Of a stretch of 64,000 bases of DNA, positions 7,937 to 61,137 are shown piece by piece. This DNA is from Rhodoglobus sp. (GTDB taxonomy: Bacteria > Actinomycetota > Actinomycetes > Actinomycetales > Microbacteriaceae): positions 27,439-91,438 of the forward strand of contig JAODLY010000028.1 in NCBI GenBank assembly GCA_025464445.1. The letters run 5' to 3'. The notes under the pieces are model-generated. The model had not been told where the DNA came from, made no database searches, and was given only the letters and a program-made list of their open reading frames with translations. Position numbers and translations under genes: made by a program. Position 1 is the stretch's first letter; the number at the start of each line of letters is the position of its first letter.

Positions 7937-7978
7937 CCCGCCCATTCTGCCGGGCGCCCGGGCGCTCTCCGGCGAGCG

Positions 7979-8371: not shown

Positions 8372-8447
8372 CATGATCATTCGCCGCACGATATGTTTAC
8401 GCTGTCAACACTTGCATACAATGGTGTGAACGTCCACAGGGAGGCCC

Positions 8448-9092
8448 GTGACAACCCCAGCAGAAGGACAGCGCCAGAACTACCACCACGGCGACCTCAT
8501 GCAGGCGTTGCTGGCGGCGGGGGTCGACCTTGCGCGCGAAGGCGGGCCGGATGCCGTGGTGCTGCGCGAGGCGACAAGGCGCGTCGGGGTGTCGCCCAAC
8601 GCCGCCTACCGGCACTTCGCCGACCGCGATGCGCTGCTCGACGCGGTGAGCGACGCGGCCCTCGCACAGCTCGCGACGGCTATCGACGCCCACTTCGACG
8701 CGATCGCACCAGGCGATGCGGAGACAGTGGCGCGCGCCCACCTGCGGGCGGTTGGCACTGGCTACGTGGCCTTCGCCCAAGATGAACCCGGACTGTTCCG
8801 CGCGGCATTCTTCGTGCCGGCCGACCTGCACAATCCGGGTACCGCGGCGAGATCGGGGCCGAGCGGCAGGAGCCCGTTCGTGCTTCTCGCCGACGCACTC
8901 GACGAGTTCGTCGCGTGCGGCATCATGCCTTCGGCGCGCCGACCACAAGCCGAATTTCTCGCGTGGTCGGCGGTGCACGGGTTTGCCCTGCTCGTGATCG
9001 ACGGGCCGCTGCGCGCCCTGCCCCGCGGGCAGGCCGACGCCGTGACCCAGCGCGTGATCGACATGGTGGAGGCGGGGCTGACCGCGCCCTGA
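8448..9092 (+). CDS. TetR/AcrR family regulator
   Basis: NYHHGDLMQALLAAGVDLAREGGPDAVVLREATRRVGVSPNAAYRHFADRDALL HTH. Confidence 0.9.
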   Translation: MTTPAEGQRQNYHHGDLMQALLAAGVDLAREGGPDAVVLREATRRVGVSPNAAYRHFADRDALLDAVSDAALAQLATAIDAHFDAIAPGDAETVARAHLRAVGTGYVAFAQDEPGLFRAAFFVPADLHNPGTAARSGPSGRSPFVLLADALDEFVACGIMPSARRPQAEFLAWSAVHGFALLVIDGPLRALPRGQADAVTQRVIDMVEAGLTAP

Positions 9093-9104
9093 CCCGCCCG
9101 TCAG

Positions 9105-9155
9105 TTGCGGACTTCCGCCCCGCTGCGTGTCACCCGGGTGGGCGAAAGTCCGCAA
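9105..9155. repeat. Imperfect palindrome (15/16 bp arms)
   Basis: ttgcggacttccgccc ... gggcgaaagtccgcaa. Confidence 0.8.
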
Positions 9156-9219
9156 GTCGAGTCGTTCCCCGGACGAGTCGTTCCCCGGACGAGTCGTTCC
9201 CTGGACGAGTCGTTCCCTG
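9156..9219. repeat. 16-bp tandem repeat x4 (gacgagtcgttcccYg)
   Basis: Four abutting 16-bp units, 9156-9171, 9172-9187, 9188-9203, 9204-9219. Confidence 0.95.
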
Positions 9220-9240
9220 GACAATATGTAGTGTGGAAGG

Positions 9241-9735
9241 GTGCAGCCGCTCAGCCCAGCCGAGATCCGCGAGAGCTTCGTGAATGCCACGCAGGGCGAG
9301 ATCGAGCGCATCCCGCTGCCCGGCCTGCACGAGGTGATCTGGGGCGACCGGGAGTACCTCGGCTGGCGCGACGCGCAGGCGCACCAGCGCGGCTACCTCG
9401 TGCACTGGGTGAGTGACCGGCCAGTCGGAATCGTGCTGCGATCATCGGATTTCGCGTTGCGTGCCGGCATCTCGGCGATGTGCTCGTTGTGCCGCATCAC
9501 CCAGCCCTCGGGCCAGGTGTCGCTGTTCTCGGCTCCACGGGCCGGGCAGGCGGGACGCGACGGCAACACCGTGGGCACCTACATCTGCGACGACCTGGCG
9601 TGCTCGCACATGATCCGCGTGCTTCCGCCGCCGCATCCCATGCAGATCCCGCGCGAGGAGTTGCTCGCGCAGCGCTCGACGAGCCTGCTCGAGCGGGTGC
9701 AGGCGTTCACCGCGGACGTGATGAAGACGGCCTGA
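9241..9735 (+). CDS. FBP (FusB/EF-G-binding-like zinc-finger) domain protein
   Basis: CSLCRITQPSGQVSLFSAPRAGQAGRDGNTVGTYICDDLACSHMIR; four-Cys treble-clef-like pattern. Confidence 0.75.
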   Translation: MQPLSPAEIRESFVNATQGEIERIPLPGLHEVIWGDREYLGWRDAQAHQRGYLVHWVSDRPVGIVLRSSDFALRAGISAMCSLCRITQPSGQVSLFSAPRAGQAGRDGNTVGTYICDDLACSHMIRVLPPPHPMQIPREELLAQRSTSLLERVQAFTADVMKTA

Positions 9736-9791
9736 CCAGCGTGCCCGCGTCGCTACACCGACGCCTGACTCAGCGCGCGAGCTCGTTGGGG

Positions 9792-9853
9792 CGTCGAAAC
9801 TCCAGTTTCGACGTGTGCGGTTAGGCGTCCGCGCAAGAACTGGCTTTTCGACG
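9792..9853. repeat. Hairpin/palindromic element
   Basis: cgtcgaaact-cc-agtttcgacg plus outer pairing with aactggcttttcgacg. Confidence 0.75.
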
Positions 9854-10018
9854 GCAGTCGCGGCAAACGGGGCCGACGGTGCTCGGGCGGGTTTGGCGAC
9901 GGAACGGGATCGCTCCAGCATTCGCTCGCGCGGGCTCGCGCACGGCCGCGCGTCCACCTGACTCACACATGGCGGGCCGCGATCCTGATGAGATCTTGAC
10001 ACGGGGCCCGAAATCCCG

Positions 10019-10042
10019 ATACTTAAGTACATGCTTAAGTAT
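10019..10042. promoter_or_regulatory. Palindromic operator spanning the start codon of the ArsR-like gene
   Basis: atacttaag-tacatg-cttaagtat, 9-bp perfect arms; ATG at 10031. Confidence 0.7.
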
Positions 10043-10408
10043 TCGGATGACGCATCACCCGCCCAGGTCGATGCCTTGTTCCACGCGCTCGCCGACGCCA
10101 GCCGCCGTTCGATGGTGGATCGGCTCAGCCGCGGGCCGGCGTCGGTGACCGAGCTCGCGACGCTCCTGACCATCACCCTCGCCGCGGTCGTGCAGCACCT
10201 GAAGGTGCTCGAATCCAGCGGGCTCGTGACGACCGAGAAGGTCGGCCGGGTGCGCAGCGCAACCCTCAGGACCGCGGCATTGGCGAGCGTCGAAGCCTGG
10301 ATCGCCGACCGGCGGGTCACCTGGGAGCGCCGGTACGACCGCCTCGGGGCATTCCTCGATTCACCAACCCCGCAAGATCCATCAACCCCACAAGGAGAGA
10401 CAGCATGA
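10031..10408 (+). CDS. ArsR-family HTH regulator
   Basis: ALADASRRSMVDRLSRGPASVTELATLLTITLAAVVQHLKVLESSGLV. Confidence 0.9.
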   Translation: MLKYSDDASPAQVDALFHALADASRRSMVDRLSRGPASVTELATLLTITLAAVVQHLKVLESSGLVTTEKVGRVRSATLRTAALASVEAWIADRRVTWERRYDRLGAFLDSPTPQDPSTPQGETA

Positions 10409-10857
10409 CCGACTACAGCATCACCCACGCCGACTTCACGCTGAAGCGCAGCTTCAAGTCCAGCCCGGCCAGGGTCTTCCAGGCATTCTCCGACAAGGCG
10501 AAGAAGGCCGCCTGGTTCGGGGATCCGACCGTCGATGGGGGCGAGTGGACGTTCGACTTCCGCGAAGGCGGCATCGAGGTGAACAGCGGCGAGTTCCACG
10601 GCCAGTCGAACTCGTTCGAAGCGCTGTACCACGACATCGTGCCGGACACCCGGATCGTCTTCAGCTACACGATGCGTGTCGGCGGCGTGAAGCTGTCGGC
10701 GTCGCTGACCACCATCGAGTTCGAGCCGGAAGGGACGGGCACGCTCGTTGTCCACACCGAGAAGGGCGCGTTCTTCGACGGCCACGAAGACCCGAAGATC
10801 CGGGAGGAAGGCACCGCCGGGATCCTCGAGGCCCTCGCGGCGGCCGTCGACGGGTAG
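10405..10857 (+). CDS. SRPBCC/AHSA1-like protein
   Basis: LKRSFKSSPARVFQAFSDKAKKAAWFGDP; start overlaps previous stop. Confidence 0.85.
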   Translation: MTDYSITHADFTLKRSFKSSPARVFQAFSDKAKKAAWFGDPTVDGGEWTFDFREGGIEVNSGEFHGQSNSFEALYHDIVPDTRIVFSYTMRVGGVKLSASLTTIEFEPEGTGTLVVHTEKGAFFDGHEDPKIREEGTAGILEALAAAVDG

Positions 10858-11027
10858 CTGTCCCTGGCTCGCCCACGCCGCCAGTGCAGCACCTCCGAAG
10901 TCGGTCGGCCGCGAGCGACGGATGGATGCCGCGGCACGCCGCCCCACGTGGGCGACGCGCCGCGGCATCCCGCGTTTGTCCGGCATGGGCCGGGTACTTG
11001 ACACCGGCGTCGCCCCGCCCTACTCTG

Positions 11028-11057
11028 TAACCAATCGCTTTCAGAACTAATTGGTTA
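11028..11057. promoter_or_regulatory. Palindromic operator upstream of second ArsR-like gene
   Basis: taaccaat...attggtta, 8-bp perfect arms. Confidence 0.6.
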
Positions 11058-11066
11058 TGGAGAGTC

Positions 11067-11444
11067 GTGGAAACGCAACAGCTCGACTCGGTGTTCGCGG
11101 CCCTCGCCGACCCCACACGGCGGGCGCTGCTGCAGCGCCTCACCGATGGGGACGCGAGCGTCGCCCAGCTTGCCGAGCCGTTCAGGATGAGCCAGCCGGC
11201 GATCTCCAAGCACCTCAAGGTGCTCGAGGCCGCCGGGCTGATCTCGCGCAACCGCGTCGCCACCGCGCGCTACAGCCACCTGGAAGCCGAGCCGCTGAAG
11301 GAGGCGACCGAATACATGGAACGGTACCGCCGCTTCTGGGCGAAGACCTTCGACCGACTGGATGCCGCGCTCGCCGCGTTCCAGCAGGCCGAGACGACCG
11401 AGACAGCCGACATCACGAACAAGGAGAACGAGAACGATGACTGA
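11067..11444 (+). CDS. ArsR-family HTH regulator
   Basis: VFAALADPTRRALLQRLTDGDASVAQLAEPFRMSQPAISKHLKVLEAAGLI. Confidence 0.92.
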   Translation: METQQLDSVFAALADPTRRALLQRLTDGDASVAQLAEPFRMSQPAISKHLKVLEAAGLISRNRVATARYSHLEAEPLKEATEYMERYRRFWAKTFDRLDAALAAFQQAETTETADITNKENENDD

Positions 11445-11904
11445 CCTCATCCCCGCGGCGACCGACCGCGACGTCTACATCAGCCGCAGTTTCGCGGCAC
11501 CGCGCGAGGTGGTCTGGAAGTTCTGGACCGACCCCGAGCGCCTCGCCGAATGGTTCGGCCCGACCGGCGTCCACACTCCCGTCGAGAACATCGACGTCAG
11601 CCTCGAGCCGGGCGGCCGCTGGGACCTCGGGATGACCGACGACGCGACCGGCGAGGTCTACCCGCTGTCGAGCCGCATCCTGAAGGTCATCGAGGGCGAA
11701 TACCTCGAGATGCACATCGAGGCGGCCAGCGGTGGGCAGATCGAAGACGTGATCCTGCGCGTGCAATTCCACGACCACGGCGAGACTACGAGGATGACCC
11801 TGCACCAGGGCCCGTTCACCCCCGAGTTCCGCGACCTGACAATCGAGGGCTGGTACGAGTCCTTCTGCAAGCTCGACAAGATCTTCGAAGGAGCCAACTC
11901 ATGA
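11437..11904 (+). CDS. SRPBCC/AHSA1-like protein
   Basis: DVYISRSFAAPREVVWKFWTDPERLAEWFGPTG. Confidence 0.9.
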   Translation: MTDLIPAATDRDVYISRSFAAPREVVWKFWTDPERLAEWFGPTGVHTPVENIDVSLEPGGRWDLGMTDDATGEVYPLSSRILKVIEGEYLEMHIEAASGGQIEDVILRVQFHDHGETTRMTLHQGPFTPEFRDLTIEGWYESFCKLDKIFEGANS

Positions 11905-12713
11905 CCACCCAAACGTCCACGGCAACCCAGACCGTCACCTCGAAGGACGGCACGACCATCGCCTACGAGAAGGTCGGGACCGGGCCGGCACTCGTGCTCG
12001 TCGACGGGGCGATGTGCTACCGCGACTTCGGCCCATGCCGCAGCCTCGCCAACCACCTCGCGGACAAGTACACCGTCTACTTCTACGACCGTCGCGGACG
12101 CGGGGCGAGCGGGGATGTGCAGCCGTACGCGCCGGAGCGTGAGTTCGAGGATCTCGCGGCGGTCATCGCGGCCACGGGCCGGGACGCGTATGTTCTGGGG
12201 TTCTCGTCAGGGGCCGGGCTGGCCTTGGAGGCCGCGGCATCCGGGGTGAAAATGAAGAAGCTCGCCTCGTACGAGGCACCCTTCGTCGGCCAGGTGCTCG
12301 TCAAGGGCAAGCCCGTCGACGCTCTCGCGGAACTCAGGAAGAAGCTCGCCGCTGGTGACCGATCCGGCGCAGTCGGTTACTTCATGGTGCAAGTGGTGGG
12401 CGGGCCTGCCTTCCTGCCCTTCATGATGAAGTACCTCATGCCCAAGGTCGGCAAGCAGCTGGCGGCCGTAGCGCACACGCTGCCCTACGACACCGAGCTC
12501 ATGCGCGGCTTCGTCGTGCCGAAGGCCGAATTCGCCAAGATCACCGTGCCGACGCTCGTGATGGGCGGTAGCAAGGCCAAACCCAACATGGTCGCGGCAG
12601 TGCAGGGTGTTGCGGACGCCGTTCCGGGATCCGTGCACAAGACGCTCGCCGGGCAGACGCACCAGGTGAAGGATGAGGCCATCGCGCCGGAGCTCATCGC
12701 GTTCTTCCGATAG
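11901..12713 (+). CDS. Alpha/beta hydrolase
   Basis: SKDGTTIAYEKVGTGPALVLVDGA...DRRGRGASG...VLGFSSGAGLAL. Confidence 0.9.
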   Translation: MTTQTSTATQTVTSKDGTTIAYEKVGTGPALVLVDGAMCYRDFGPCRSLANHLADKYTVYFYDRRGRGASGDVQPYAPEREFEDLAAVIAATGRDAYVLGFSSGAGLALEAAASGVKMKKLASYEAPFVGQVLVKGKPVDALAELRKKLAAGDRSGAVGYFMVQVVGGPAFLPFMMKYLMPKVGKQLAAVAHTLPYDTELMRGFVVPKAEFAKITVPTLVMGGSKAKPNMVAAVQGVADAVPGSVHKTLAGQTHQVKDEAIAPELIAFFR

Positions 12714-12721
12714 CCGAGGCG

Positions 12722-14077
12722 CTACCAGTCCAGCGGACCGGCAGTTCCGGCTGGGTAGCTGTCGAGTGGGACCTTGCCCGCGCGCCACGCGTCGATGACG
12801 GGGCTGATGATCCGCCAGCACTGTTCGGCGACGTCGCCGCGCACCGACAGCGTGGGGTCGCATTCGAGCAGCTCGGCCAGCACCTCGCCGTACGCGCTCA
12901 GCTCCCCCGCACCGAGGTCGCTGTGCAGCGGGACCCGCTCGAGGGTGAACGGGTCGCCCTGGCCGTTGATCACGAGGTCGAGATCGAGGGTCGCCGGCTT
13001 CAGCGAGATGCGAAGGCAGGATGGGCCCTCCACGCCGGTGAGCCCCGTGGGCAGGTGCGGCACGGCCTTGAACACCACGCGGATATCCTGGCGGGACTCC
13101 CCCAGCCCCTTGCCGGAACGCAGGATGAACGGGACCCCAGCCCAGCGCCAGTTGTCGATGGCGAGCGTGACCTCGGCGAGCGTCTCGGTCCCGCGGGACG
13201 CGTCGACGCCATCCTCGTCCTGGTACGCGGGCAGTCTCCTGCCCTCGATGGTGCCTGCGGCGTAGCGTGCCCTGTGGCTCGACTTGCCGTTCTTCGCCCA
13301 ACTGCGTGTCGCCCGCAGTACCTGCGCCATCGACCCGCGCAGGTCGTCTTCGCTCAGGCTCGCGGGTGGCTCCATCGCCGTGAGTGCGAGCACGAGCAGC
13401 AGGTGGCTCTGGATCATGTCGGTCAGCGCGCCGGCCTTGTCGTAGTAGCCAGCCCTGCCTTCCAGGGCGAGCATCTCGTCGAAAACGATCTCCACCCGAT
13501 CCACGTTCTGCGAGGAGAACAGCGGTTCGAAGATGCGATTCGCGAAGCGCAGGCCGAGCAGGTTGAGCACAGTCGACTTTCCGAGGAAGTGGTCGACGCG
13601 GAATAGCTGCTCCTCCGGCAGCATGCTCTCGAGCAGCCGGTTGAGCGACTTCGCCGACGCCAGGTCTGTGCCGAACGGCTTCTCGAGGGCGAGCGTGATG
13701 CCCTTCGGCAGGTCCAACTTCGAGAGCTGAGTGCAGGCGATCACCGTGACGGCGGGTGGCAGCGCGAAGTAGAGCGCGATGCGGCCCGGGGCCTCGGCGA
13801 GCACCCGGGCGAGATCACTTGCGCTCGTGGCATCCCCCTGCACGTAGCGCGTCTTCGCGGCGACCTTCCTGGCGAGCGGCGAGGGCTCGGCATCGAAGGC
13901 GGCCTTGACCTTCTCGCGCCACGCGGCATCCGTCTGCTGCGCGCGGTCGACCCCGATCACGAGCAGGTCCGCGCCGCGGGACGACCCGAGATACGACGCA
14001 AGGCCCGGCAACAGCAGGCGGGATGTCAGGTCACCGCCCGCACCGAGGATGACAAGGGTATCGATGCGTTCAGCCAC
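12722..14077 (-). CDS. zwf: Glucose-6-phosphate dehydrogenase
   Basis: ILGAGGDLTSRLLLPGL...LFRVDHFLGKSTVLNLLGLRFAN (G6PD active-site region). Confidence 0.92.
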   Translation of the reverse strand: MAERIDTLVILGAGGDLTSRLLLPGLASYLGSSRGADLLVIGVDRAQQTDAAWREKVKAAFDAEPSPLARKVAAKTRYVQGDATSASDLARVLAEAPGRIALYFALPPAVTVIACTQLSKLDLPKGITLALEKPFGTDLASAKSLNRLLESMLPEEQLFRVDHFLGKSTVLNLLGLRFANRIFEPLFSSQNVDRVEIVFDEMLALEGRAGYYDKAGALTDMIQSHLLLVLALTAMEPPASLSEDDLRGSMAQVLRATRSWAKNGKSSHRARYAAGTIEGRRLPAYQDEDGVDASRGTETLAEVTLAIDNWRWAGVPFILRSGKGLGESRQDIRVVFKAVPHLPTGLTGVEGPSCLRISLKPATLDLDLVINGQGDPFTLERVPLHSDLGAGELSAYGEVLAELLECDPTLSVRGDVAEQCWRIISPVIDAWRAGKVPLDSYPAGTAGPLDW

Positions 14078-14116
14078 CCTGCCGACAGTACTACGCGTGC
14101 TATCAGGCCAGCCTGG

Positions 14117-14746
14117 TCAGTCGGGTTCGGCAGCCTTGACAGGTTCAGCGGCCTCGATTGATGACACGGCCTCCGAGTCGGTCACCGCGACGGGGGTGCC
14201 GTCGGCCTGCTCGACAACGACGGCAGGCCCGCGGTGGCCCCATGTCATCCACAGCCAGATGAGCACGCCGACGATTATCGTGCCGACCACGAAGACGAAC
14301 GGACCGAGAAAAAGCGGCCCGGAGACGTTCGTGTCCGAGAGTTTGCCCGCGATGAACAGGTAGAGCACGAAGAGCGGCAGGTCGAGGACCGCCGCGATCA
14401 CCACCGCGCTCAGGGTCGTCGCCCACGGCTTACGCACCCTGCCGCCCTTGAGGATCCATCCGCTGACAAGGAATCCGAGAAGCATCAGCAGCAACGAGAT
14501 CACGCCGAAGACGACCCCGACAACCTGGATAACGGCGCCGGCCTGTGACAGGAAGGCGCTTATCGACTGCACGTCGCCGAATCCGCCCGCGATTCCGCCG
14601 ATCGACGCGCCGAAAACGAGCAGCAGGCCACCGCCGAGCAGCAGGAATCCGAGCCCGAGCCAGCCGAGCGCAAAGAGGAGGTGCCCGAAGATTCCCGCGA
14701 AGATTGCCGCCCCGCGCTGGCGGCCGGTGAGCATTGCTTTCTGCAT
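14117..14746 (-). CDS. Multi-pass membrane protein, unknown function
   Basis: Several hydrophobic helices; no family recognised. Confidence 0.6.
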   Translation of the reverse strand: MQKAMLTGRQRGAAIFAGIFGHLLFALGWLGLGFLLLGGGLLLVFGASIGGIAGGFGDVQSISAFLSQAGAVIQVVGVVFGVISLLLMLLGFLVSGWILKGGRVRKPWATTLSAVVIAAVLDLPLFVLYLFIAGKLSDTNVSGPLFLGPFVFVVGTIIVGVLIWLWMTWGHRGPAVVVEQADGTPVAVTDSEAVSSIEAAEPVKAAEPD

Positions 14747-14821
14747 GTCTCATTCATAGTGCCGGGGATGACGCGCCCACAAGCAGGCGGACCGCCCGGC
14801 ACACGGGCGGTCCGCCGCCGG

Positions 14822-15562
14822 TCAGCTCGCCATCGTCCTGCGCAGGATCGCCCGCTCCCCCAGCGTCCACGCCGTGGTGACGGCGAGGTAGATCGTCGCC
14901 GCGAGCGGCACGAGGGCCGCGAAGACCACGGTGAGGAACGGGAGCCAGCTCAACACGGCGCCCGCGGACCGCAGTGCACCGGCGACGGGTACTACGGGTA
15001 CGGGAGCCATGCGCAGTGCGGTTCGGCGCGACATCCACGCCACCGCGGCGATCGCCAGTAGCAGCCCGACAAACACGAGCAGCTGCGGCCACGCGGTGGC
15101 AGAGCCCAGCACCGCGAGCAGGGACGAGCCGAGCGAAACCCCGAACAGGTGTTCGGTGAGCAGTGCATTCGGATGGCCGGCGATGATCGCGAGCACGAAC
15201 AGGCCGTAGAGCACAGAGAGCACAGGTGCCTGCAGCAGCGTCGGCAGGATCCCGCCGAACGGGGAGGCCTTCTCCTGCCGGTACAGTTCGAGCGTCTTGC
15301 GCTGCAGCAGTTGCGGGTTCTTCTTGTACTTGCGCTGCAGCTCAGCGAGTTTCGGCGCAAGCCGCCTGCGGATGATCTCCGCCCGCACCTGCGAGATGCC
15401 CACCGGTACGAGCAGTGTGCGCACAATCGTTGTCAACAGCACTATTGCGAATGCGGCGCTCGAGGTACCGCCAAACGGCTCGAGCGCTGCCGAAAGCGCA
15501 GAGATGACGTGGTACGCCCCGTCGAGCACAGCTGCGACAGGGGGAAACGAATAGAAGTTCAT
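14822..15562 (-). CDS. YidC/Oxa1-family membrane insertase (accessory paralogue)
   Basis: LLTTIVRTLLVPVGISQVRAEIIRRRLAPKLAELQRKYKKNPQLLQRKTLELYRQEKASPFGGILPTLLQAPVL. Confidence 0.9.
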   Translation of the reverse strand: MNFYSFPPVAAVLDGAYHVISALSAALEPFGGTSSAAFAIVLLTTIVRTLLVPVGISQVRAEIIRRRLAPKLAELQRKYKKNPQLLQRKTLELYRQEKASPFGGILPTLLQAPVLSVLYGLFVLAIIAGHPNALLTEHLFGVSLGSSLLAVLGSATAWPQLLVFVGLLLAIAAVAWMSRRTALRMAPVPVVPVAGALRSAGAVLSWLPFLTVVFAALVPLAATIYLAVTTAWTLGERAILRRTMAS

Positions 15563-15622
15563 GTCAGTCCTAAGGGTCGAATCGAGTGAGGGGCCATGGC
15601 CGCTCACCGTCCGACGGACTGG

Positions 15623-15916
15623 CTATGCGGCCGCGAGACCCCGCGACGGCGCCCTCGAGCGTGTGCGACCCGGAGTTGCGGGATGCCGCGGCGCGGGCAT
15701 CCCCGACAGCGACTGCCTGTGCTGCCGCGCGCGGTGGCCGATGGTCACGACGCGCGAGCGGAATCCACCACCCGAGTACCTGGCGGCGAGCAGCATCCCG
15801 ACCGCGAGCACGGCGACACCGCTTGCGAGCACGGACGCGGACCCCGGTTGGGTGATCGAAGCCGCGAGCAGGGCAAGCGTCATGGCCATGACGAGCCGCT
15901 CCAGCATCCAACGCAT
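15623..15916 (-). CDS. Small membrane protein (DUF6412-like)
   Basis: MRWMLERLVMAMTLALLAASITQPGSA...; directly upstream of yidC-like gene. Confidence 0.55.
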   Translation of the reverse strand: MRWMLERLVMAMTLALLAASITQPGSASVLASGVAVLAVGMLLAARYSGGGFRSRVVTIGHRARQHRQSLSGMPAPRHPATPGRTRSRAPSRGLAAA

Positions 15917-51632: not shown

Positions 51633-52349
51633 TCAGTTGGCCTTGACTAGCTCGATCAGCAACGTCGCCGACGACGAGGAGGCACCTCCCGCCAACGGGG
51701 TGATCGTCAGCGCGGTGGAGTTGCCCACCGGGTTGCGCACCGTCAGCACCTGGCCGACCGTGGTCGTGGCGACGAGGGTAGTAAGGCCGATGAGCGACGT
51801 TCCCGTCGCACGACCGGTCACCGTGTATTGCAGCGGGACACCGTCGAGTGTGAGCTCCAGCTGGCCGGCCTCGGTGACTGACACCTGGAACGACACCCGG
51901 TAGACCCCCGGCGTGGCCAGCGTGAAAGCGGTGGTAGAGGATCGCGCGATCCCCGTGTTCGTCGTCGGCCCGTTCTGGGGGAACTCAACATCCCCGCCGA
52001 CGGCGACGGTTGCCGTGTTGTCCGGGGGCATGAGCGCGAAGAAGAGCGCCGAGGCGCTCGATCCGGGAGCGCCAGGAACCCCGGCCGGCCCTTGTGGCCC
52101 GATGGCGCCCGGTGCTCCGGCGGCGCCCGATGACCCGTCTGAGCCGGACGCTCCCCTTGGCCCTGCCGCCCCCTGCGCGCCCGCCGCTCCGGGGAGGCCC
52201 GGAGCACCAGTGGGACCCTGTGCACCCTGGGGCCCTGCCGCACCGTCCGCGCCGGCGGGGCCGACCGCCGCACATCCGATCAGGGGGAGCACCAGCGCCC
52301 ACGAGATCGCGCCCACAATTAATCTTGATCCGCGCAAAGTCGCGTCCTC
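51633..52349 (-). CDS. Collagen-like (Gly-X-Y) lipoprotein, paralogue B
   Basis: [35 protein letters not shown]-terminal domain similar to paralogue A; exact start uncertain. Confidence 0.85.
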
Positions 52350-52450
52350 CCGGTCAGTGAATTGCCACCAGCGTAGGGGCAACGCTGTCGATTGGGGCTC
52401 CCCCACGTCGTCACCTCAGTGACAGCATCACTACAAGGGAAGGAACAACG

Positions 52451-52828: not shown

Positions 52829-54008
52829 GCCGATCGAGCCCGTCGAGATCCGGGCGGAGGAGGTGGCGCGCTCGTCCTACGGACGACTGCTCGCCGTGCT
52901 CGCCGCCCGCACCGGCGACATCCCGGCCGCGGAGGATGCCCTCGCCGACGCCTTCGAGCGGGCGCTGCGCACCTGGCCGGTGAACGGCATCCCGGACAAC
53001 CCGGAGGGCTGGCTCGTTACCGTGGCGAAGAACCGCTGGCTCGACGAACTGAAGCGCAAGCGGCCCTCGTCGGTCGAGCCCGTCGAGACCATCGACCCAG
53101 ACACCATCCCCGACAAGCGCCTCGAGCTCATGTTCGTCTGCGCCCACCCCGCGATCGACGCGGCGATCCGCACGCCGCTCATGCTGCAGGTGGTGCTCGG
53201 GTTCGAGGCGTCCGCGATCGCTGCCGCCTACGCGATGCCGACGGCGACCATGGCCCAGCGGCTGGTGCGGGCGAAGCGCCGGATCCGGGATGCCCGCATC
53301 CCCTTCACCGTCCCCTCCCGCGACGACATGCCGGCCCGCCTGCCCGCTGTGGTCGAAGCGGTCTACGGCGCCTATGCGATCGACTGGATGCAGGTCTCCC
53401 CACCCACCGTCCGCGACTCCCTCGCCGCGGAGGCCCTCTACCTCGCCCTCCTCCTCGCGACCCTCCTGCCCGACCCCGAAACCCTGGGCCTGGCCGCCCT
53501 GCTCTCCCTCTCGATCGCCCGCACCTCCGCGCGCATAGTCGACGGGATGCTCGTGCCGCTCGAATCCCAGGACACCGCCCTCTGGGACCACGCGCTCACC
53601 GCCCAGGGCGAGGCGCTGCTGCGGGCGGCGCACGCCTACTCCCGTATCGGCCGCTTCCAGCTCGAGGCCGCCATCCAATCGGTGCACTGTGCTCGCGCGG
53701 TCTCGGGTACTACGGACTGGGTCACGCTGCGCACGCTCTACACCGGACTCCTCCAGGTCGCCCCGACCCTCGGCGCACAGGTGTCGCTCGCTGCCGTGGT
53801 CGCCCATACCGACGGGCCCGCCGCTGGACTCGAGTCACTCGACGCCTTGGGAGAGCCCGCTTTCCAGCCCTACTGGGCAACCCGCGCGCACCTCCTGGCC
53901 GAGCTAGGGCGGCGGGATGACGCGGCTCACGCCTACGCGAAGGCGATCAGTTTGACGACTGATCAGTCTGTCCGAAGGTATATTCGCGCAGTCTCGACAG
54001 CAAGGTGA
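52788..54008 (+). CDS. RNA polymerase sigma factor (ECF, DUF6596 type)
   Basis: GRLLAVLAARTGDIPAAEDALADAFERALRTWPVNGIPDNPEGWLVTVAKNRWLDELKRK; overlaps YCII gene; start codon uncertain. Confidence 0.88.
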   Translation: MCISPTGSGTKLARPIEPVEIRAEEVARSSYGRLLAVLAARTGDIPAAEDALADAFERALRTWPVNGIPDNPEGWLVTVAKNRWLDELKRKRPSSVEPVETIDPDTIPDKRLELMFVCAHPAIDAAIRTPLMLQVVLGFEASAIAAAYAMPTATMAQRLVRAKRRIRDARIPFTVPSRDDMPARLPAVVEAVYGAYAIDWMQVSPPTVRDSLAAEALYLALLLATLLPDPETLGLAALLSLSIARTSARIVDGMLVPLESQDTALWDHALTAQGEALLRAAHAYSRIGRFQLEAAIQSVHCARAVSGTTDWVTLRTLYTGLLQVAPTLGAQVSLAAVVAHTDGPAAGLESLDALGEPAFQPYWATRAHLLAELGRRDDAAHAYAKAISLTTDQSVRRYIRAVSTAR

Positions 54009-54115
54009 GCTACAGCTGGCAGAAGTCGCCGTATCGGCGACCGCCAAGGGTGGCTCATTTGGGTGCGGTGCTTGAGGCAATATGCTGGTGCTCCATACCG
54101 ATGTAGGGAGCTTTC

Positions 54116-55171
54116 GTGGTCCCTGAGTCGGAATATGATCACGAACTCACGTGGATTTTGAAGGCTGCTTCGACATCTGCGCAGCGCTTGCAGTTTGATG
54201 AGCTGCTGAGGAAGACAGATGGGGCGTTTCCAAGCGATGTGCTCAGCGCCGCCCGACGCTTAGACCTTCAAATTGACTTCGCTGACCACGAGGCCTTGGA
54301 AGTTCGTGACGGACCGGATCCTTCACCAGCCCAAGGTGAGTTCTATTTCGATCGAGCGACCGCCAAGTTTTTAGCGTCCGCGCTGATGGGCAGAGTCCTG
54401 CTGCTAGGCGCACCATCTGTGGCCGCCGAATTGACGCATCAAGATCGACCGCTGACGCTTGTCGACTCCAGCCCTTGGCTAAACGAGCGATTCGGAATCA
54501 CTGGCTCTCTTCGAGTTGGCACGGTTGAGACCTTTCGGGCTGGGGCGGCCTTTGACAGCGCTGTGTTGGACCCGCCGTGGTATTTCCCAGAAATGACCAC
54601 TTGGCTAAGCATCGCTGCCAACGCGGTGAAGGCTGGTGGGACAATCTTGATGCCGCTCTTGGGCCGACTGACCCGCCCCTCAGCCACTCGGGATCGCATA
54701 GAGATCCTAGAAATGGCTTCACGCGTCGGATCAGTGAGCGTCGTGGAGAATGTCGTCGCCTATGACAGCCCGCACTTCGAAAGACGAGCGATAGCTCGTT
54801 CGGGCGGGCGCCTGGGTCGGGAGTGGCGACGCGCCTCGCTGCTCAAGATTTCGCGAAGTGACGCTGACATCGAGCCCCTTCTAGTCCGGAACCAGGATCC
54901 CTCGACCGTCTGGGTGGACCGACGAATCGGTCAGTCAATCGTTTCCATCCGAAGAAAAAACCCTGAATCTGGCACCCGACCCGTCGTCCATTTGCTGGAC
55001 GGGATAAGCCGTCGTGATCCTCGTATCGCAGCTTCAAACGTCTGGACATCTGAGAGTACGGCGGCCGTCGTTGACCGTCCGGAGGTGCTACTTGACGAAC
55101 TCTCGCAAGTCGAGTCCTCTTGGAGCTCGGCGACAAGGGCCCTCCTGGACCGATTGGAGATTGACCATTGA
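54116..55171 (+). CDS. DPPW-motif methyltransferase-like protein (MT-A70/N6-adenine-MTase-like)
   Basis: RVLLLGAPSVAAELTHQDRPLTLVDSSPWL...FDSAVLDPPWYFPEMTTWLSIAANAVKAGGTILMPL; GTG start with tagggag SD. Confidence 0.6.
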   Translation: MVPESEYDHELTWILKAASTSAQRLQFDELLRKTDGAFPSDVLSAARRLDLQIDFADHEALEVRDGPDPSPAQGEFYFDRATAKFLASALMGRVLLLGAPSVAAELTHQDRPLTLVDSSPWLNERFGITGSLRVGTVETFRAGAAFDSAVLDPPWYFPEMTTWLSIAANAVKAGGTILMPLLGRLTRPSATRDRIEILEMASRVGSVSVVENVVAYDSPHFERRAIARSGGRLGREWRRASLLKISRSDADIEPLLVRNQDPSTVWVDRRIGQSIVSIRRKNPESGTRPVVHLLDGISRRDPRIAASNVWTSESTAAVVDRPEVLLDELSQVESSWSSATRALLDRLEIDH

Positions 55172-56562
55172 TTGTCTTGCGCTTTTCAAGTCTGGATGAC
55201 GAAACGATTTCCGCGCATGACGCACTCATCGCTGATGAGGGATTCGCTTGGTGGGGATGGTGGAAAAAACGGCACGAACCCTGGCCGGACTCGGGTACTC
55301 TCAGCCGCATTGGACGAGCCCGACAGATTGGACTTGTCGACCGCGCCGCTGAGTTGTATTACGTCGCCTCATCGCGGGACATGGTGCACGCATCCGGCGA
55401 TGTCATCTCATCACCAGACTCGGCGCATTCCCCACGCTATTACTCGGACGCTCTCTTGCCGATGTGGCTCAAGTTCGTTCGAATAGAGAGATTGAGCGCC
55501 AACGAATGGGCAGAGAAGTTTGGGCGTGTCCCAGAGGGCGACTCAACATTGTTCGAGCAATCGCCGCAGGAGCTAAGCCGCTCGGCAGGCGGCGCTCCAG
55601 TGCGCTTTTCAAATGCGCCAGAAAGTCGAACCGCGATCCTTCACATATCGGACTTGCACTTTGGCGATGACCACGCGTATTCGGGGCAGCACACAATCGA
55701 CAACTCTATCGAGCTGCTAGATAACCTCGTCCGCGATCTTCCGTCTGCGCCGGCAGTTGTTGTCGTTTCTGGGGATTTGACTACCAGAGGAGGGCAAGCG
55801 GGCTTGGACGCTGCGCTCGAATTTCTCGAGCGGCTTGCCCTGAGACTGCAACTTCCGCGGGACAACATCATTGTCGTACCGGGCAATCACGACATACTCG
55901 TCGACGACCTTGACGACCGTAAGGACTTCGATAACGAAGGGCCATTCAGAACTTTCGTTGAGGACTTTTACGGTGAGCCTGTCGCTTTGGAGAGGATCCA
56001 CCTCGTCACGTTGTCGGACGGTCGCAAGTTTGCGTTCGGGTTAGTGAACTCGTCGCGACCCCGAACGTCGCGGCTCATGGATTACGGGTATGTAGGGCGA
56101 GACCGGGCAGCTCCAATAATGGATCTGCTCGCTCGACTGGCCGATCAGGGCTGCATCACGTTCTTTGTCCTGCACCATCATCTGCAGTCCGCGCAGGGAT
56201 TCGAGGAGCCGATCATCAACCGCCCAGTCAGCATCACTCTGGATGCTGGTGAGCTTGTTTCGTCCGCAGCTCGCAGCAACGTCACAGCGATACTGCACGG
56301 GCATCAGCATTTACCGTTTGTCGGCTCCGCCACTCGCGCAGCGGAGTTCTCACACAGCGGCCCAACTCCACTTCCTCCCACTACTCGGGCGGTCCCAACT
56401 CTCGGAGCGGGATCGCTGTCGGCAGGGATAAGTCGACTTGGCGACGAACTGCGCGACAACTCATTTTCGTTCTATGAGGTACTTGAGAACGAGTTACGAA
56501 TACGCGTCTATCGACTCAATCCAAATCAATACAGCTCGTTGATCTGGGACTTCCATATTTGA
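55168..56562 (+). CDS. Metallophosphoesterase with about 150-aa extra N-terminal domain
   Basis: HISDLHFGDDH, VVSGDLTTRG, VPGNHD, VLHHHLQ, ILHGHQHLP; TTG start overlapping previous stop. Confidence 0.85.
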   Translation: MIVLRFSSLDDETISAHDALIADEGFAWWGWWKKRHEPWPDSGTLSRIGRARQIGLVDRAAELYYVASSRDMVHASGDVISSPDSAHSPRYYSDALLPMWLKFVRIERLSANEWAEKFGRVPEGDSTLFEQSPQELSRSAGGAPVRFSNAPESRTAILHISDLHFGDDHAYSGQHTIDNSIELLDNLVRDLPSAPAVVVVSGDLTTRGGQAGLDAALEFLERLALRLQLPRDNIIVVPGNHDILVDDLDDRKDFDNEGPFRTFVEDFYGEPVALERIHLVTLSDGRKFAFGLVNSSRPRTSRLMDYGYVGRDRAAPIMDLLARLADQGCITFFVLHHHLQSAQGFEEPIINRPVSITLDAGELVSSAARSNVTAILHGHQHLPFVGSATRAAEFSHSGPTPLPPTTRAVPTLGAGSLSAGISRLGDELRDNSFSFYEVLENELRIRVYRLNPNQYSSLIWDFHI

Positions 56563-56684
56563 GCGCGCTAATCGCAATCGCCATGGTGGTTTTGCCGAGA
56601 GCGTCACGGCGAGCGGATGATGGTCCAGGCCTCTGCGAAAGCGGTAAGTCGACGACCGATGCAGCGCTACCTCGAGGGCGCCGA

Positions 56685-57344
56685 CTAGATAGCTAGCTCT
56701 TCGAGAAATTCTTGCCCTCGCCAGCGTTCGACCCGCACAACGTGATCAAGAATGTCATCAACCCCACCAATCACGCAGAGTTCCGCAACATCATTGGCGG
56801 CGGCCACAGCCCTCCGCCGCGGCGGGTGCGGATACTGTCCAATCGTCTTGAAGGTATCGCTACCTCTAGGCACGGGGTTGTAGATCGTCGATCCCGAATT
56901 GATCCTTGAAAGCCGCACAGATTGTGCGTGTACGGCCAAGAGACTAGCCGTATCAACCACTATGACGGTCTGAGCCTGGGCGCGATATGGCCCGGCATTC
57001 AGAAGGCCCATTAGCCGCTTGGGTTGAAGCCAGAAGAAAACTCGGCTATTAAGCATCTCCAGCCACTGAACTGGCGTCATGTCAGTGAGGCATCTGTCCA
57101 ATGCGGACATCCGTAGCGGCTTCTGATCTCTGACCACCGCTGTTCCGTACCTAGGGGAGCTAATCTCAACGGACTCAGGCCGTCGTTCGTGAGTCAGAAT
57201 TTCTCGTTCAGCATGAGGGACTTCGAAGAGTCGTAACAATCGATCTGTACTCAGAAGGCCATTCGCCTTTATGGACGGCCACGATCCATCTTCGGCCATG
57301 TGGTACAAGAAGGGATACAAACTGACCAAGTCGCCCTGAATCAA
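56685..57344 (-). CDS. DUF7002/DarT-like (putative ADP-ribosyltransferase-fold) protein
   Basis: LYHMAEDGSWPSIKANGLLSTDRLLRLFEV...SRVFFWLQPKRLMGLLNAGPYRAQAQTVIVVDTASLLAVHAQSVRLSRINSGST. Confidence 0.5.
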   Translation of the reverse strand: MIQGDLVSLYPFLYHMAEDGSWPSIKANGLLSTDRLLRLFEVPHAEREILTHERRPESVEISSPRYGTAVVRDQKPLRMSALDRCLTDMTPVQWLEMLNSRVFFWLQPKRLMGLLNAGPYRAQAQTVIVVDTASLLAVHAQSVRLSRINSGSTIYNPVPRGSDTFKTIGQYPHPPRRRAVAAANDVAELCVIGGVDDILDHVVRVERWRGQEFLEELAI

Positions 57345-57395
57345 GTTATTGCCCCTTTGGCCTGTGCGGAATGAAATTGCACTTTGTTCAACTAT

Positions 57396-59060
57396 CTACC
57401 ACTCCCGTCGATCGATCATGCTTCGCGCGTCGAACCCCGTGCACACGAGGGAGACGGGAGCGCCGGCAACTCGCTCAACCTCCTCGACAAAGTGAATCGT
57501 CTCGGTAGTCAATTGATCAAACCGCCGTGCATTCTGATTCGCTGCGTCGAGATAGTCCGCAAACGTGACCGCGATGTCCGTCGCCCCGTTTAGTTCGGAA
57601 GCACGCCGTAGCAGCTCCCAATCGAACTCCGCGACCCGACGCTTGCTTCCGCTGACGGATCCCTTCTCTCGCTCACGCAGCATTGCCTCGTCGAGGCTCG
57701 CTCGTTTCGCGATGACGTCCCAATCGATCTCCTGCGACATTTGGCCGGAAGATGATGATGGCGGGTTGCCGACGCGGATCGGATATGTCCGAACAACCAT
57801 GACAACCCGACGAAGGCGGTGAGGCCCAATTCCAGCCTCTGCTAGACATGCGCTAGTCGTCGTGTCTCGACTAGTCACCCAAGGGTAGAAGCCATGAAAG
57901 AGACTGAGTAGTGTTCCCTGTGTCCCTTCCAGCATGACCTTCTTGTGGGCGCGGAAGGCCATCTCCAAGATGGCTCCGGTTGGCCGAATATATGCAGCAA
58001 GTTCGGTGACGTTCTTCGCGAGCCTCACTGGGGGTGCGACCTCAGAGCTCCTACCCATAATCCTCCGGGCTGCCGCAGCGCCACCTCCTTTGCCCGTGGA
58101 GCCAATGTCCTTCTTCATCTGTTCCTCAGCCTGCCGGTCTTCTGGCTCGATGACCATCGCTTGAGGATCTATGAACAGCCGACCCGATTCGACGCCACAA
58201 TCAGCTATCTCTTGTAGAAGAACGTCCAAGTCGAGAGTCGCCCCAGGCCCGATTAGCAGGATCGCACTCGAGTTCGCGAGAGTTCCTGAAGGAAGCAGGC
58301 GGTGAGTGTAGGGGTCGGGCTGCGTCGGCACTTTGTGTCCCGCATTGGGACCACCAACTCGCATCAGAACGTCGTATTCGTTGGCGAGGTGGTAGACGAC
58401 ATTGCCCTTACCTTCGCTTCCATACTGCCCACCTATGAAAACGTCAACTAATCGCTCGGACCGAGATGAACTGAGGCCCAAAGCCGCGATTGCGCGAGCT
58501 AAGACGTCCCTCTCGGAACTACGCGAAGTATCAATGGATACGTCAGCATCCACTTCCAAGCTGGACACATTTGCCTCAGTCGGGTTTGAAGCAACCTCTT
58601 CGTAGGTTGAGAGTTCAACCAGACCACTGTCATCCCGGGACTTGTATCTCGCCGCCAGTACTTCCGCCGGAGCGTGAACGTGAATGTGGGTAACTCTTGA
58701 CGGGAAAGCTGAGCGAAGCGCGCCGATCTGGCCAACGATTCGCACCGCATCGACGACGACTAATCCGGTGCCAGCAGCGCCGCTAGCGATGAGTTCAGCA
58801 ACCTCATCGGCGACCCACGCTCCCCCCGTTTCTGTGTCGAGTTGCTCACCGAATTTCTGCATTGCGCGCCGTTCCGCATCTAACGTCTCGCCGCGGGATA
58901 CAGCGACATCGCGCATGAGATCCTGTGTACGCACATAAGCAAGGCCAAACATGTCAGCCAGATTCCTGCCAAGCGTTGACTTGCCCGCTCCAACTGGCCC
59001 GCTTAGAACGACGATGCGGGGTGTCACCTCCTCGGGGACGACCCACATCGGCTTAGCCAT
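57396..59060 (-). CDS. Fusion: N-terminal P-loop nucleotide kinase + adenylosuccinate synthetase (PurA/PurZ-like) domain
   Basis: RIVVLSGPVGAGKSTLGRNLA; DVFIGGQYGSEGKGNVVYHLA...GGPNAGHKV...IGSTGKGGGAA...EGTQGTLLSLFHGFYPWVTSRDTTTSACLAEAGIGP...YPIRVG; ORF can extend to 59108. Confidence 0.85.
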   Translation of the reverse strand: MAKPMWVVPEEVTPRIVVLSGPVGAGKSTLGRNLADMFGLAYVRTQDLMRDVAVSRGETLDAERRAMQKFGEQLDTETGGAWVADEVAELIASGAAGTGLVVVDAVRIVGQIGALRSAFPSRVTHIHVHAPAEVLAARYKSRDDSGLVELSTYEEVASNPTEANVSSLEVDADVSIDTSRSSERDVLARAIAALGLSSSRSERLVDVFIGGQYGSEGKGNVVYHLANEYDVLMRVGGPNAGHKVPTQPDPYTHRLLPSGTLANSSAILLIGPGATLDLDVLLQEIADCGVESGRLFIDPQAMVIEPEDRQAEEQMKKDIGSTGKGGGAAAARRIMGRSSEVAPPVRLAKNVTELAAYIRPTGAILEMAFRAHKKVMLEGTQGTLLSLFHGFYPWVTSRDTTTSACLAEAGIGPHRLRRVVMVVRTYPIRVGNPPSSSSGQMSQEIDWDVIAKRASLDEAMLREREKGSVSGSKRRVAEFDWELLRRASELNGATDIAVTFADYLDAANQNARRFDQLTTETIHFVEEVERVAGAPVSLVCTGFDARSMIDRREW

Positions 59061-60435
59061 TAGTTGTTCGCGCAGCGTAGGGGATACTCGGTCGCGTGTG
59101 GACGACAACCTTCAGCCCCGCATCCACCAAGTAGGACACAACAAGCCTCTCCACTTCATCCCAACGACCGCCGGCTTGGCCAGCGCCGAGCCGCGGTAGG
59201 TGAATTTCAGCCTGACGTGTCGTCGCCAGGTCAGCGAGTTTTGCCAGAGACTCTTCAAGCGCGTCGTAACGAAGCCGAGGACCCCCACCGCCGAATCCTT
59301 CTTGGGCAACGAGGCTCGCTACCCCAACCTTCCGATCGGCGATATCCCGCTCAACAAAGTGAAGCCCGCCAAGGTCAAGGTTTCGCGGGGAGGCAATCGT
59401 CCAAGCGCGGAATGCCTGTGCAAAGTCCGGGAACGCTTTGGCAAGGGTCCCGGCCGCACCCACGTGATTCCAGGTTCGGACAGAGCCTGATACGACATGA
59501 GCAAAGATGACCGGCGTTCTTCCCTCGGCCACTTCGAGTAGGTCGGAGACGACGAAGTCCAAGCCGGAGATTGCGAGTCTCTCATCCTCGCGCTCCAAGA
59601 GGGCAAGGACTCGGGGCCACTGGCTGCCCGGGTAAGCGGGAACTCCCACGCACTGCAAGTAGAGCTTTTCTTCGGCGATCTCCACCGTCCCTCGGACGGT
59701 TTGACCGACGGCCGCGCAATTGAGCAAGGGTTGGATATTTTCAAGCAGATCACCATGGCCGATGGCGGCCAGCAGATCCGACTCTCGGGCTCTGGCCGAG
59801 CTGGCCACATAATCTACCCGCATGGCAAGAGAAGCAAGATGCGTTGGTCGCGATGTCGCGAGCATCGTGAGCGACCTCGGCGTCGCTTCCACTAGCCGGC
59901 GAAGAAGCGCTTCAGTCGATACATCCCACTTACGGCGCGTTTCCATGATGAAGTCAATGTCCGGGTCAACCGTGAGCAGCCCCTCGACCGCCTGGCCAGG
60001 GATTAGCAAATCTGCGGCAATTACGTCGCAGACGAGCTCCAGCTCCCAATCGTCAGTTGCGACATCGGCGATTGATCCAGCCGCAGTTCGGTGACGTGGG
60101 CGATCTGCGACGTCAGCAAAGCGTGAGTGCGCGATCTCGTGAGCAATGCTGAAACGCAAGCGACCGCGTGGGCGGCTCGGGTTGTATTCGATTACAAGAT
60201 CTTGCATCTCAGTTGCGATGATTCGCGCATCCAAGAGGTCGTCCTTGGGGCGGAGTTGTATACCCAAAGCACTAGCAAGGCCAAATACGTCAACAGGCGG
60301 CCCGGAGAGCCCCTGCTGGTTCGCCAGCTCGACCAACTGCTCCGCCACGTTGTGCGCATGCTCCAGTGGATCCTGCCCATCCGAAAAGGCAAGGACCGAG
60401 TGATTCGACCAACTGTGAGCAATCGTCTCTGACAC
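59053..60435 (-). CDS. ImmA/IrrE metalloprotease + macro-domain fusion
   Basis: RLRFSIAHEIAHSRFAD; C-terminal FAHVVSGSVRTWNHVGAAGTLAKAFPDFAQAFRAW...IHLPRLGAGQAGGRWDEVERLV. Confidence 0.75.
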   Translation of the reverse strand: MSETIAHSWSNHSVLAFSDGQDPLEHAHNVAEQLVELANQQGLSGPPVDVFGLASALGIQLRPKDDLLDARIIATEMQDLVIEYNPSRPRGRLRFSIAHEIAHSRFADVADRPRHRTAAGSIADVATDDWELELVCDVIAADLLIPGQAVEGLLTVDPDIDFIMETRRKWDVSTEALLRRLVEATPRSLTMLATSRPTHLASLAMRVDYVASSARARESDLLAAIGHGDLLENIQPLLNCAAVGQTVRGTVEIAEEKLYLQCVGVPAYPGSQWPRVLALLEREDERLAISGLDFVVSDLLEVAEGRTPVIFAHVVSGSVRTWNHVGAAGTLAKAFPDFAQAFRAWTIASPRNLDLGGLHFVERDIADRKVGVASLVAQEGFGGGGPRLRYDALEESLAKLADLATTRQAEIHLPRLGAGQAGGRWDEVERLVVSYLVDAGLKVVVHTRPSIPYAARTTNG

Positions 60436-60462
60436 AAGGCAAAGACTAGGGCTATCCCACGA

Positions 60463-60984
60463 CTATTCGAGGAATAGTGGCGGTTGATCCAAGAGAACTC
60501 TGCGAACGTCCGGGGGACTGTACGTCGCTGGCTTCAGGACTTTTCCATCACCCCTCATCAGAGGACGGCCATCGGCGCCGAGCTTACTCATGTTGGCACG
60601 GTGCACTTCTCTCAGAACTGCGTCAAGATCGATTCCATAAGTCAACGCAGAGCCGTAAGCCACATAAACGATATCGGCGAGAGCGTCGGCGATCGCCACA
60701 AGATCGGCGTTCTCCACCGCGTCAGCAAACTCCTCAAACTCCTCCCGAAGAAGTTCCACTCTCAAACTGCCCAGGCCCCCTGCGACGTTCTGTTGCGGCC
60801 TGGTCTCGATCGGTAGGTTGAAAGCAAGATGGAACTCAGCCACGGAAGCGATCGCTTCACTGGCACCGTTCGAACGACGGGGACGTCGAGCCACCAGCCG
60901 TGGCGGCAGCCCGAGGTCGAGCTCCGGCTGGGGCGCCACAGGAGAAGGATCAACCTTCGCGACAAGGTTGATCACGCTACGCAT
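60463..60984 (-). CDS. MazG/HisE-like nucleotide pyrophosphohydrolase
   Basis: VAEFHLAFNLPIETRPQQ...RVELLREEFEEFADAVENADLVAIADALADIVYVAYGSALTYGIDLDAVLREVHRANMSKLGADGRP; start uncertain (GTG 60843 also plausible). Confidence 0.8.
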   Translation of the reverse strand: MRSVINLVAKVDPSPVAPQPELDLGLPPRLVARRPRRSNGASEAIASVAEFHLAFNLPIETRPQQNVAGGLGSLRVELLREEFEEFADAVENADLVAIADALADIVYVAYGSALTYGIDLDAVLREVHRANMSKLGADGRPLMRGDGKVLKPATYSPPDVRRVLLDQPPLFLE

Positions 60985-61068
60985 CTTTGGATCATCGCAC
61001 AGAACGGCAAACCGCCTGCTCAGTCTCAACGGGAGCATCAGTGTTTGAGATGGACCGGTGTGCACTGG

Positions 61069-61086
61069 GTCCCGCCGCGGCGGGAC
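61069..61086. repeat. Perfect 18-bp palindrome near the right edge of the island
   Basis: gtcccgccgcggcgggac. Confidence 0.8.
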
Positions 61087-61137
61087 GGCGAACCGGTGTT
61101 CAGCGTCTTCTGGCACGACACGAAGATAGCGCGGAGC

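Follow-up and report, generated by a model that had tools for sequence, protein, structure and literature searches.

What pathway would bring a nucleotide kinase and an adenylosuccinate synthetase-like enzyme together in one polypeptide, and what would their product be used for? The question is raised by a gene of Rhodoglobus sp. (GCA_025464445.1) that lies in a 64,000-nt stretch of contig JAODLY010000028.1 (positions 27,439 to 91,438 of the forward strand), hereafter the window, within which all coordinates of the locus are numbered (Table 1). A preliminary description had read the product, here called KPurZ, as an NMP/dNMP or shikimate-type kinase fused to a PurA-family enzyme, and had taken the fusion to suggest channelling of an unusual (d)NMP to the diphosphate, or supply or use of the phosphodonor.

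Table 1. Features of the KPurZ locus in the window
Feature	Coordinates	Strand	Remarks
351-aa protein	54116..55171	+	weakly similar to N6-adenine methyltransferases; forms a pair with the phosphoesterase at all three loci (window, L004, L007)
Pua-like + calcineurin-like phosphoesterase	55168..56562	+	related to anti-phage DS9_1; 3/91 loci
DUF7002 protein	56685..57344	-	219 aa; predicted ADP-ribosyltransferase, DarT/Tpt1 fold
KPurZ (kinase-PurZ fusion)	57396..59060	-	554 aa from ATG 59060; 570 aa if upstream TTG 59108 is used
KPurZ, C-terminal PurZ-type synthetase domain	57399..58448	-	residues ~221-570; GGQYGS231EGKG, S337, PI444RV, D518
KPurZ, N-terminal NMP-kinase domain	58464..59021	-	residues ~30-215; GPVGAGKST P-loop, D120-x-x-R123-x-x-x-Q127, R154/R158
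M78 (ImmA/IrrE/CapP-like) metallopeptidase + macrodomain	59053..60435	-	HExxH; BT1257/5E3B-type macrodomain at residues ~285-450; first gene of the trio
MazG/PRA-PH-type all-alpha nucleotide pyrophosphohydrolase	60463..61116	-	nearest solved relative DR2231; recurs at 11 loci
Low-GC island	54000..61120		GC 0.555-0.61 versus 0.65-0.70 in the flanks (1-kb bins); ~7 kb, all six genes

A kinase and a synthetase in one reading frame

KPurZ is encoded by a single open frame (57396..59108, minus strand) that yields 570 residues when counted from a TTG, and residue numbers in the text and Table 1 (G42, K43, S231, D518 etc.) follow this 570-aa numbering. The ATG at 59060 is likely a better start than the TTG at 59108, since it gives an 8-nt overlap with the stop of the gene before it and agrees with the start adopted in the preliminary description. 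In a family profile search, residues 30-215 matched P-loop kinase families (AAA_17, 2e-9; AAA_33, 4e-7; SKI, 3e-5) and residues 221-569 matched Adenylsucc_synt (5e-56), the whole domain also matching solved PurA/PurZ structures. The same fusion was found at 79 loci of other genomes, on several plasmids and on several viral contigs, at 42-67% identity and with its motifs kept, which confirmed that it is real and not an assembly accident. The initial observation of a kinase joined to a complete synthetase domain in one frame was thus borne out, as was that of a Walker A motif (GPVGAGKST) within the N-terminal ~200 residues: the P-loop GxxxxGK[ST] is kept across the fusions (G42 in 88/90, K43 in 87/90, S/T44 in 87/90).

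To find the other-genome loci, 84,980 species genomes were scanned; this gave 414 related loci, of which the best 79 were retained, nearly all of them full fusions. The roughly 90 full-length fusions examined come from no fewer than 14 bacterial and archaeal phyla and, in addition, from phage-like contigs; KPurZ is also found on rhizobial plasmids and IMG/VR contigs. Phylum labels change 20 times on the KPurZ tree (minimum 13, shuffled mean 50), arguing for a vertical signal with possible transfer. One archaeal (Gagatemarchaeum) locus, L046:10001-13985, carries two full, convergent KPurZ copies.

The N-terminal domain resembles adenylate kinase

As modelled (pLDDT 96), the N-terminal domain is an adenylate-kinase-like NMP kinase: the best structural match is the AMP-bound, AdK-related SSO1041 (VIA Z 19.3, 2.6 Å over 167 residues), followed by adenylate and UMP/CMP kinases. 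Of the two kinase types first envisaged, the NMP kinase therefore stood; shikimate kinase, like gluconate kinase, was rejected because the structural match was weaker than for NMP kinases. The NMP-binding motif and the lid arginine are kept (D120 in 87/90, R123 in 87/90, Q127 in 89/90 and R154 in 89/90). From a profile alignment and what is known of AdK, we take D120-x-x-R123-x-x-x-Q127 to be the equivalent of D84...R88...Q92 in AdK, where the arginine grips the NMP phosphate and the glutamine recognises adenine. The motif would suit a kinase substrate with an adenine-like base, for example dZMP or dAMP. While the domain shares its fold and NMP-binding motif with AdK-related NMP kinases of the SSO1041 type (PDB 3LW7/3H0K), it is only ~20% identical to them, is fused to PurZ and exists as a second, stand-alone copy at 6 loci.

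A synthetase domain with PurZ-type residues

NCBIfam ranked the synthetase domain nearest to archaeal PurA, at a score below the cut-off (PRK04293, 290 bits versus 368), and it also fell below the cut-off of the phage PurZ model (NF038379, 202.5 bits versus 300), which is why we term it PurZ-type and not a PurZ equivalog. We aligned its active site with those of the S-2L, phiVC8 and Archimedes PurZ proteins and of PurA from the window genome and from P. horikoshii. Ser231 occupies the site of the PurA catalytic Asp13 in 90/90 fusions, a count that was partly selected for, since the serine belongs to one of the two patterns used in the genome scan (Q[YFW]GSEGKG); the plasmid KPurZ sequences, recovered without the patterns, carry Ser231 as well. 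Three other residues, none of which is in either pattern, are also present in 90/90 fusions: Ser337 (Thr in PurA), Ile444 of PIRV (Thr in PurA) and Asp518, the last being common to PurA and PurZ0 and replaced by Gln/Asn in S-2L/phiVC8, so that a GTP-type donor is possible for KPurZ. There is also an insertion after Val446, as in PurZ; this feature and the serine at the Asp13 site are described for PurZ in PMC8342488. In a quick maximum-likelihood tree of 55 fusions, in which several viral rows were long-branched, KPurZ formed one clade (SH-aLRT 99) within the PurZ clade (100), apart from the PurA-type sequences, of which only three were sampled.

Taken by its sequence, the domain is PurZ-type and not PurA-type. 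It shares with PurZ/PurZ0 of Z-genome phages (S-2L, phiVC8, Archimedes; PDB 7ODX, 6FM1, 7VF6) the serine at the Asp13 site, GST for GTT, PIRV for TRV, the insertion behind a conserved valine and a supported clade, but adds an N-terminal NMP kinase, is mostly cellular, has at the position of the donor base an aspartate (Asp518) like that of PurA and PurZ0, and neighbours M78-macrodomain and DUF7002 genes instead of DatZ/MazZ/DpoZ. With archaeal-type short PurA (P. horikoshii, PDB 5K7X, 2D7U; PRK04293) it has in common the best whole-domain sequence match and the short architecture, whereas the catalytic Asp is a feature of PurA, and KPurZ lies below the PRK04293 cut-off and in the PurZ clade. 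An ordinary second PurA was rejected on the serine at position 13, the tree position and the separate PurA genes, a full-length PurA over cut-off being present in 37/40 KPurZ genomes searched. The partner proposed at the outset, a complete domain of the PurA superfamily, is upheld.

These features suggest dGMP and aspartate as the substrates of KPurZ and succino-dZMP as its product, although a serine at the Asp13 site alone is no proof of dGMP use and Asp518 is still that of PurA and PurZ0. The proposal that an unusual (d)NMP is involved holds up, such a nucleotide being the most likely substrate because the synthetase is PurZ-type. Channelling between the domains fared less well: direct hand-over would be awkward, as succino-dZMP must lose fumarate before an AdK-type kinase would be expected to accept it, and, because PurB (adenylosuccinate lyase) acts between the two steps, channelling within the polypeptide would be indirect.

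Among the phage-like IMG/VR contigs, L091 and L097 carry KPurZ near a gene for an NDT-like + MazG-like protein, an arrangement reminiscent of DmtZ/DutZ in the gene set of PurZ0 phages (PMC12884076). On these two contigs, as on L092 and L095, KPurZ stands without a detected DUF7002 gene; it lies beside a deoxynucleotide kinase-like gene on L092 and beside a family A DNA polymerase on L095. All four contigs are possible Z-genome phages with a fused enzyme. The viral KPurZ of L091 and L092 nest among cellular ones, and a Z-specific polymerase was shown at no KPurZ locus.

A recurrent operon with KPurZ at its centre

Among the 89 full-length loci, DUF7002 lies directly downstream on the same strand in 71, an M78-macrodomain gene lies directly upstream in 53, and both flank KPurZ in 47, mostly overlapping or separated by gaps of <40 nt. 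KPurZ thus recurs as the second of three genes in one operon, whose order, M78-macrodomain/KPurZ/DUF7002, is conserved across phyla. The preliminary description, made from the sequence alone, had missed these partners as well as the wide distribution and the island setting.

The product of the first gene keeps the HExxH of the M78 domain (H99, E100, H103), which matches PADLOC capP (4e-19) and PDB 7T5T and 3DTE. Its macrodomain is C-terminal, behind M78, and nearest to PDB 2AFC/2FG1 (BT1257) and 5E3B, TARG1 and DarG being weaker matches; against the DarG model the protein scored 17.7 bits (cut-off 250), and DarG itself has its macrodomain at the N-terminus, together with a DarT-binding domain. 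The M78 domain with HExxH is common to the regulators of CapHP, IrrE-DdrO and ImmA-ImmR; the C-terminal macrodomain sets the present protein apart, as does the lack of a conserved repressor gene directly upstream, where BLAST clustering of ~900 nt revealed neither a conserved small gene nor a conserved HTH repressor. The M78-macrodomain protein was undetected in more than a third of the loci, including 11 rhizobial-type loci that have an HD enzyme and a 472-aa protein in its place; its absence from these argues that it is not an obligatory antitoxin. Searches of Pfam, NCBIfam and the PDB sequences gave no match to the 472-aa protein. A protein of 450-517 aa in which no domain was recognised is encoded at the rhizobial-type loci lacking the M78-macrodomain gene (L004-L008, L064, L070, L078, L079, L088, L090).

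DUF7002 is a predicted ADP-ribosyltransferase

The model of DUF7002 (pLDDT 95.5) has an ADP-ribosyltransferase fold. Its closest structural neighbour is DarT1 (8baq; VIA Z 10.4, rmsd 3.6, 163 aligned residues), followed, over fewer residues, by DarTG (Z 9.9) and Tpt1 (Z 9.2); the match lists also include ADP-ribosyltransferase toxins of pathogens, which reflect the common fold only. Alignment with the DarT profile by hhalign gave a probability of 71% (E 4e-5). Residues invariant among 63 DUF7002 sequences include R55, R72, D73, N149, G151 and E188, the last of which aligns with the glutamate of DarT AE-x-LV and is the predicted catalytic C-terminal Glu. Pfam DarT (PF14487) did not match the DUF7002 protein of the window, and the best of six DUF7002 proteins tested scored 16.5 bits against a threshold of 22.5. 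Taken together, the model and these residues point to an ADP-ribosyltransferase. DarT1 itself is guanosine-specific, an Asn and an extra Asp handling the guanine (PMC11543638). We found no literature on the function of DUF7002.

Compared with DarTG (DarT1/NADAR, DarT2/DarG), the operon shares a DarT-like fold with a C-terminal invariant Glu and, at about half of the loci, a co-encoded macrodomain protein. It differs in that DUF7002 falls short of the Pfam DarT score, its macrodomain is not DarG but one of the BT1257/5E3B type on an M78 protease, and a kinase-PurZ enzyme lies between the transferase and macrodomain genes. DUF7002 is patchy among relatives (9/199 genomes) and also occurs without KPurZ, including genes without a detected macrodomain neighbour. 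Two DUF7002 genes without KPurZ lie at L196:7096-8289 and L192:7743-8480; the L196 copy adjoins the gene of a 2'-5' RNA ligase-family protein, a hint that DUF7002 may serve more broadly in RNA or ADP-ribose chemistry. The window genome itself has two DarT-family genes elsewhere (G000 contigs C51:25552-26142 and C55:67887-68468).

Satellite genes and the genomic setting

Genes that accompany the operon at some loci point to deoxypurine chemistry. An HD phosphohydrolase is encoded at 11 alphaproteobacterial loci without the M78-macrodomain gene, which are other loci than those with MazG, and it shares its H, HD, D motif with DatZ. The similarity of the locus MazG to MazZ is not close: the MazG protein of the window was rejected as a MazZ orthologue on BLASTP against S-2L MazZ, which gave a 24-residue match (E 0.06). 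A lyase cluster is present at 5 loci, and the four lyases tested all scored as PurB over cut-off; at four actinobacterial loci a PurB gene adjoins the module. Deoxynucleoside kinase genes occur at 3 loci. On a rhizobial plasmid (L009, Rhizobium leguminosarum pCC283b_4, 7483-15831), a cluster with PurA-like, FolE, PurB, QueE, QueC, 6-carboxytetrahydropterin synthase, IMPDH-like, nitrile hydratase, phosphoribosyltransferase and HAD genes has the look of a cluster for 7-deazapurine nucleosides of the toyocamycin/sangivamycin type, and the synthetase in it has retained the catalytic Asp.

In sister genomes we found no clean empty site of the low-GC island: the flank genes were on one contig in one of them only, ~100 kb apart. 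A collagen-like protein with Gly-X-Y repeats is encoded at 51633-52406 (minus strand) of the window. The phosphoesterase and methyltransferase-like pair (54116-56562) may be a companion defence system, as it recurs near KPurZ at L004 and L007. When neighbours of KPurZ and of purA from the same 20 genomes were compared with PADLOC, 119 KPurZ neighbours matched 247 families and 114 purA neighbours matched 11, the neighbours being taken as long open frames, which are equally noisy in the two sets, and the comparison covering 20 loci and one type of control locus. The families near KPurZ are led by type I restriction, for which member counts (6 methylases and 4 specificity subunits, with none near purA) are a fairer measure than family counts because there are numerous type I families and they overlap. 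A role in defence may be argued from the neighbourhood only.

Discussion

What would such an operon do? Our preferred reading, to which we give about an even chance, is that of a conflict module of prokaryotes that moves horizontally and most likely acts against phage or in the way of a toxin-antitoxin system; its core enzyme would make 2-aminoadenine (Z) deoxynucleotides, and the partners would write and erase an ADP-ribose mark. The dGMP would come from the host pool or, at some loci, from the action of MazG or of a deoxynucleoside kinase. Given its active-site residues and tree position, the PurZ domain would join dGMP and aspartate, with GTP or ATP, into N6-succino-2-amino-dAMP, from which an adenylosuccinate lyase, of the host or identified as such at the locus, would release fumarate to leave dZMP. 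The AdK-type kinase would then form dZDP, and host NDK dZTP. DUF7002, going by its modelled fold, would transfer ADP-ribose from NAD+, its target probably being a DNA base or else a nucleotide; where present, the macrodomain may bind or remove the mark and the M78 peptidase may regulate or execute the response. As to how Z synthesis and ADP-ribosylation meet, we would guess that the transferase either takes Z nucleotides or Z-containing DNA as its substrate or spares them as self. The broader claim of a cellular immune or conflict system that couples 2-aminoadenine nucleotides to reversible ADP-ribosylation across bacteria and archaea is more tentative, and we put it clearly below even.

A strict toxin-antitoxin scheme is not forced, because the M78-macrodomain protein goes undetected at so many loci and DUF7002 also occurs without KPurZ. 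A DarTG-like system, with DUF7002 as the toxin, the M78-macrodomain protein as the antitoxin and KPurZ as a pool or repair accessory that acts on ADP-ribosylated or damaged guanine nucleotides and makes no Z, would agree with the nearness of the DUF7002 fold to guanosine-specific DarT1 (PMC11543638) and with the macrodomain gene in the same operon at 47/89 loci; we consider it rather unlikely, as the PurB, MazG and HD satellites suit a biosynthetic route better than repair and some DUF7002 genes have no detected macrodomain neighbour. Alternatively, KPurZ and DUF7002 might build an ADP-ribosylated modified nucleotide that the macrodomain reads so as to activate the M78 protease, much as NAD-derived signals work in Thoeris-type systems. 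The presence of enzyme, transferase and macro-protease in one operon, together with the fusion of a macrodomain to a CapP-like protease (by its capP, 7t5t and macrodomain matches), would fit such a signal, but the macro-protease is undetected in over a third of loci and erasing ADP-ribose is a macrodomain activity too, so that this option seems improbable.

The position of KPurZ inside the PurZ clade and the phage-like contigs with KPurZ and NDT/MazG genes could also mean that cells or prophages captured a phage Z-DNA pathway and keep it for Z-genome synthesis or as a remnant, the other genes being incidental. An incidental neighbourhood sits poorly with a gene order conserved across phyla, and the nesting of viral KPurZ (L091, L092) among cellular ones also speaks against capture, which we regard as quite improbable. 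We give the least credence to a role in ordinary purine metabolism or in making a nucleoside natural product, with a second adenylosuccinate synthetase fused to adenylate kinase. An AdK-like kinase with a PurA-superfamily domain would be chemically sensible (IMP to AMP to ADP) and the annotation is adenylosuccinate synthetase; against this stand the loss of the catalytic Asp13, the separate PurA genes, the patchy island distribution and the lack of recurrent natural-product genes among the neighbours.

Our literature search yielded no description of the kinase-PurZ fusion or of its operon, nor any work joining adenylosuccinate synthetase with a macrodomain, with anti-phage defence, or with toxin-antitoxin systems and ADP-ribosyltransferases. 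Searched by term, two papers on PurZ (PMC8342488, PMC12884076) show no kinase fusion; in one of them, a 2026 survey, four archaeal sequences are placed beside phage PurZ (PMC12884076). As far as the literature found shows, KPurZ is an undescribed, mainly cellular PurZ-type branch whose conserved operon also encodes a predicted ADP-ribosyltransferase.

The operon would point to a function for DUF7002 and would make the use of non-canonical nucleotides in prokaryotic defence testable. Biosynthesis of 2-aminoadenine (Z) is known as a phage trick; if the PurZ-type reading is true, cells too would make or handle this base. The Z pathway would then be used outside phage genomes and base replacement would be linked to ADP-ribose chemistry, neither of which we found described.
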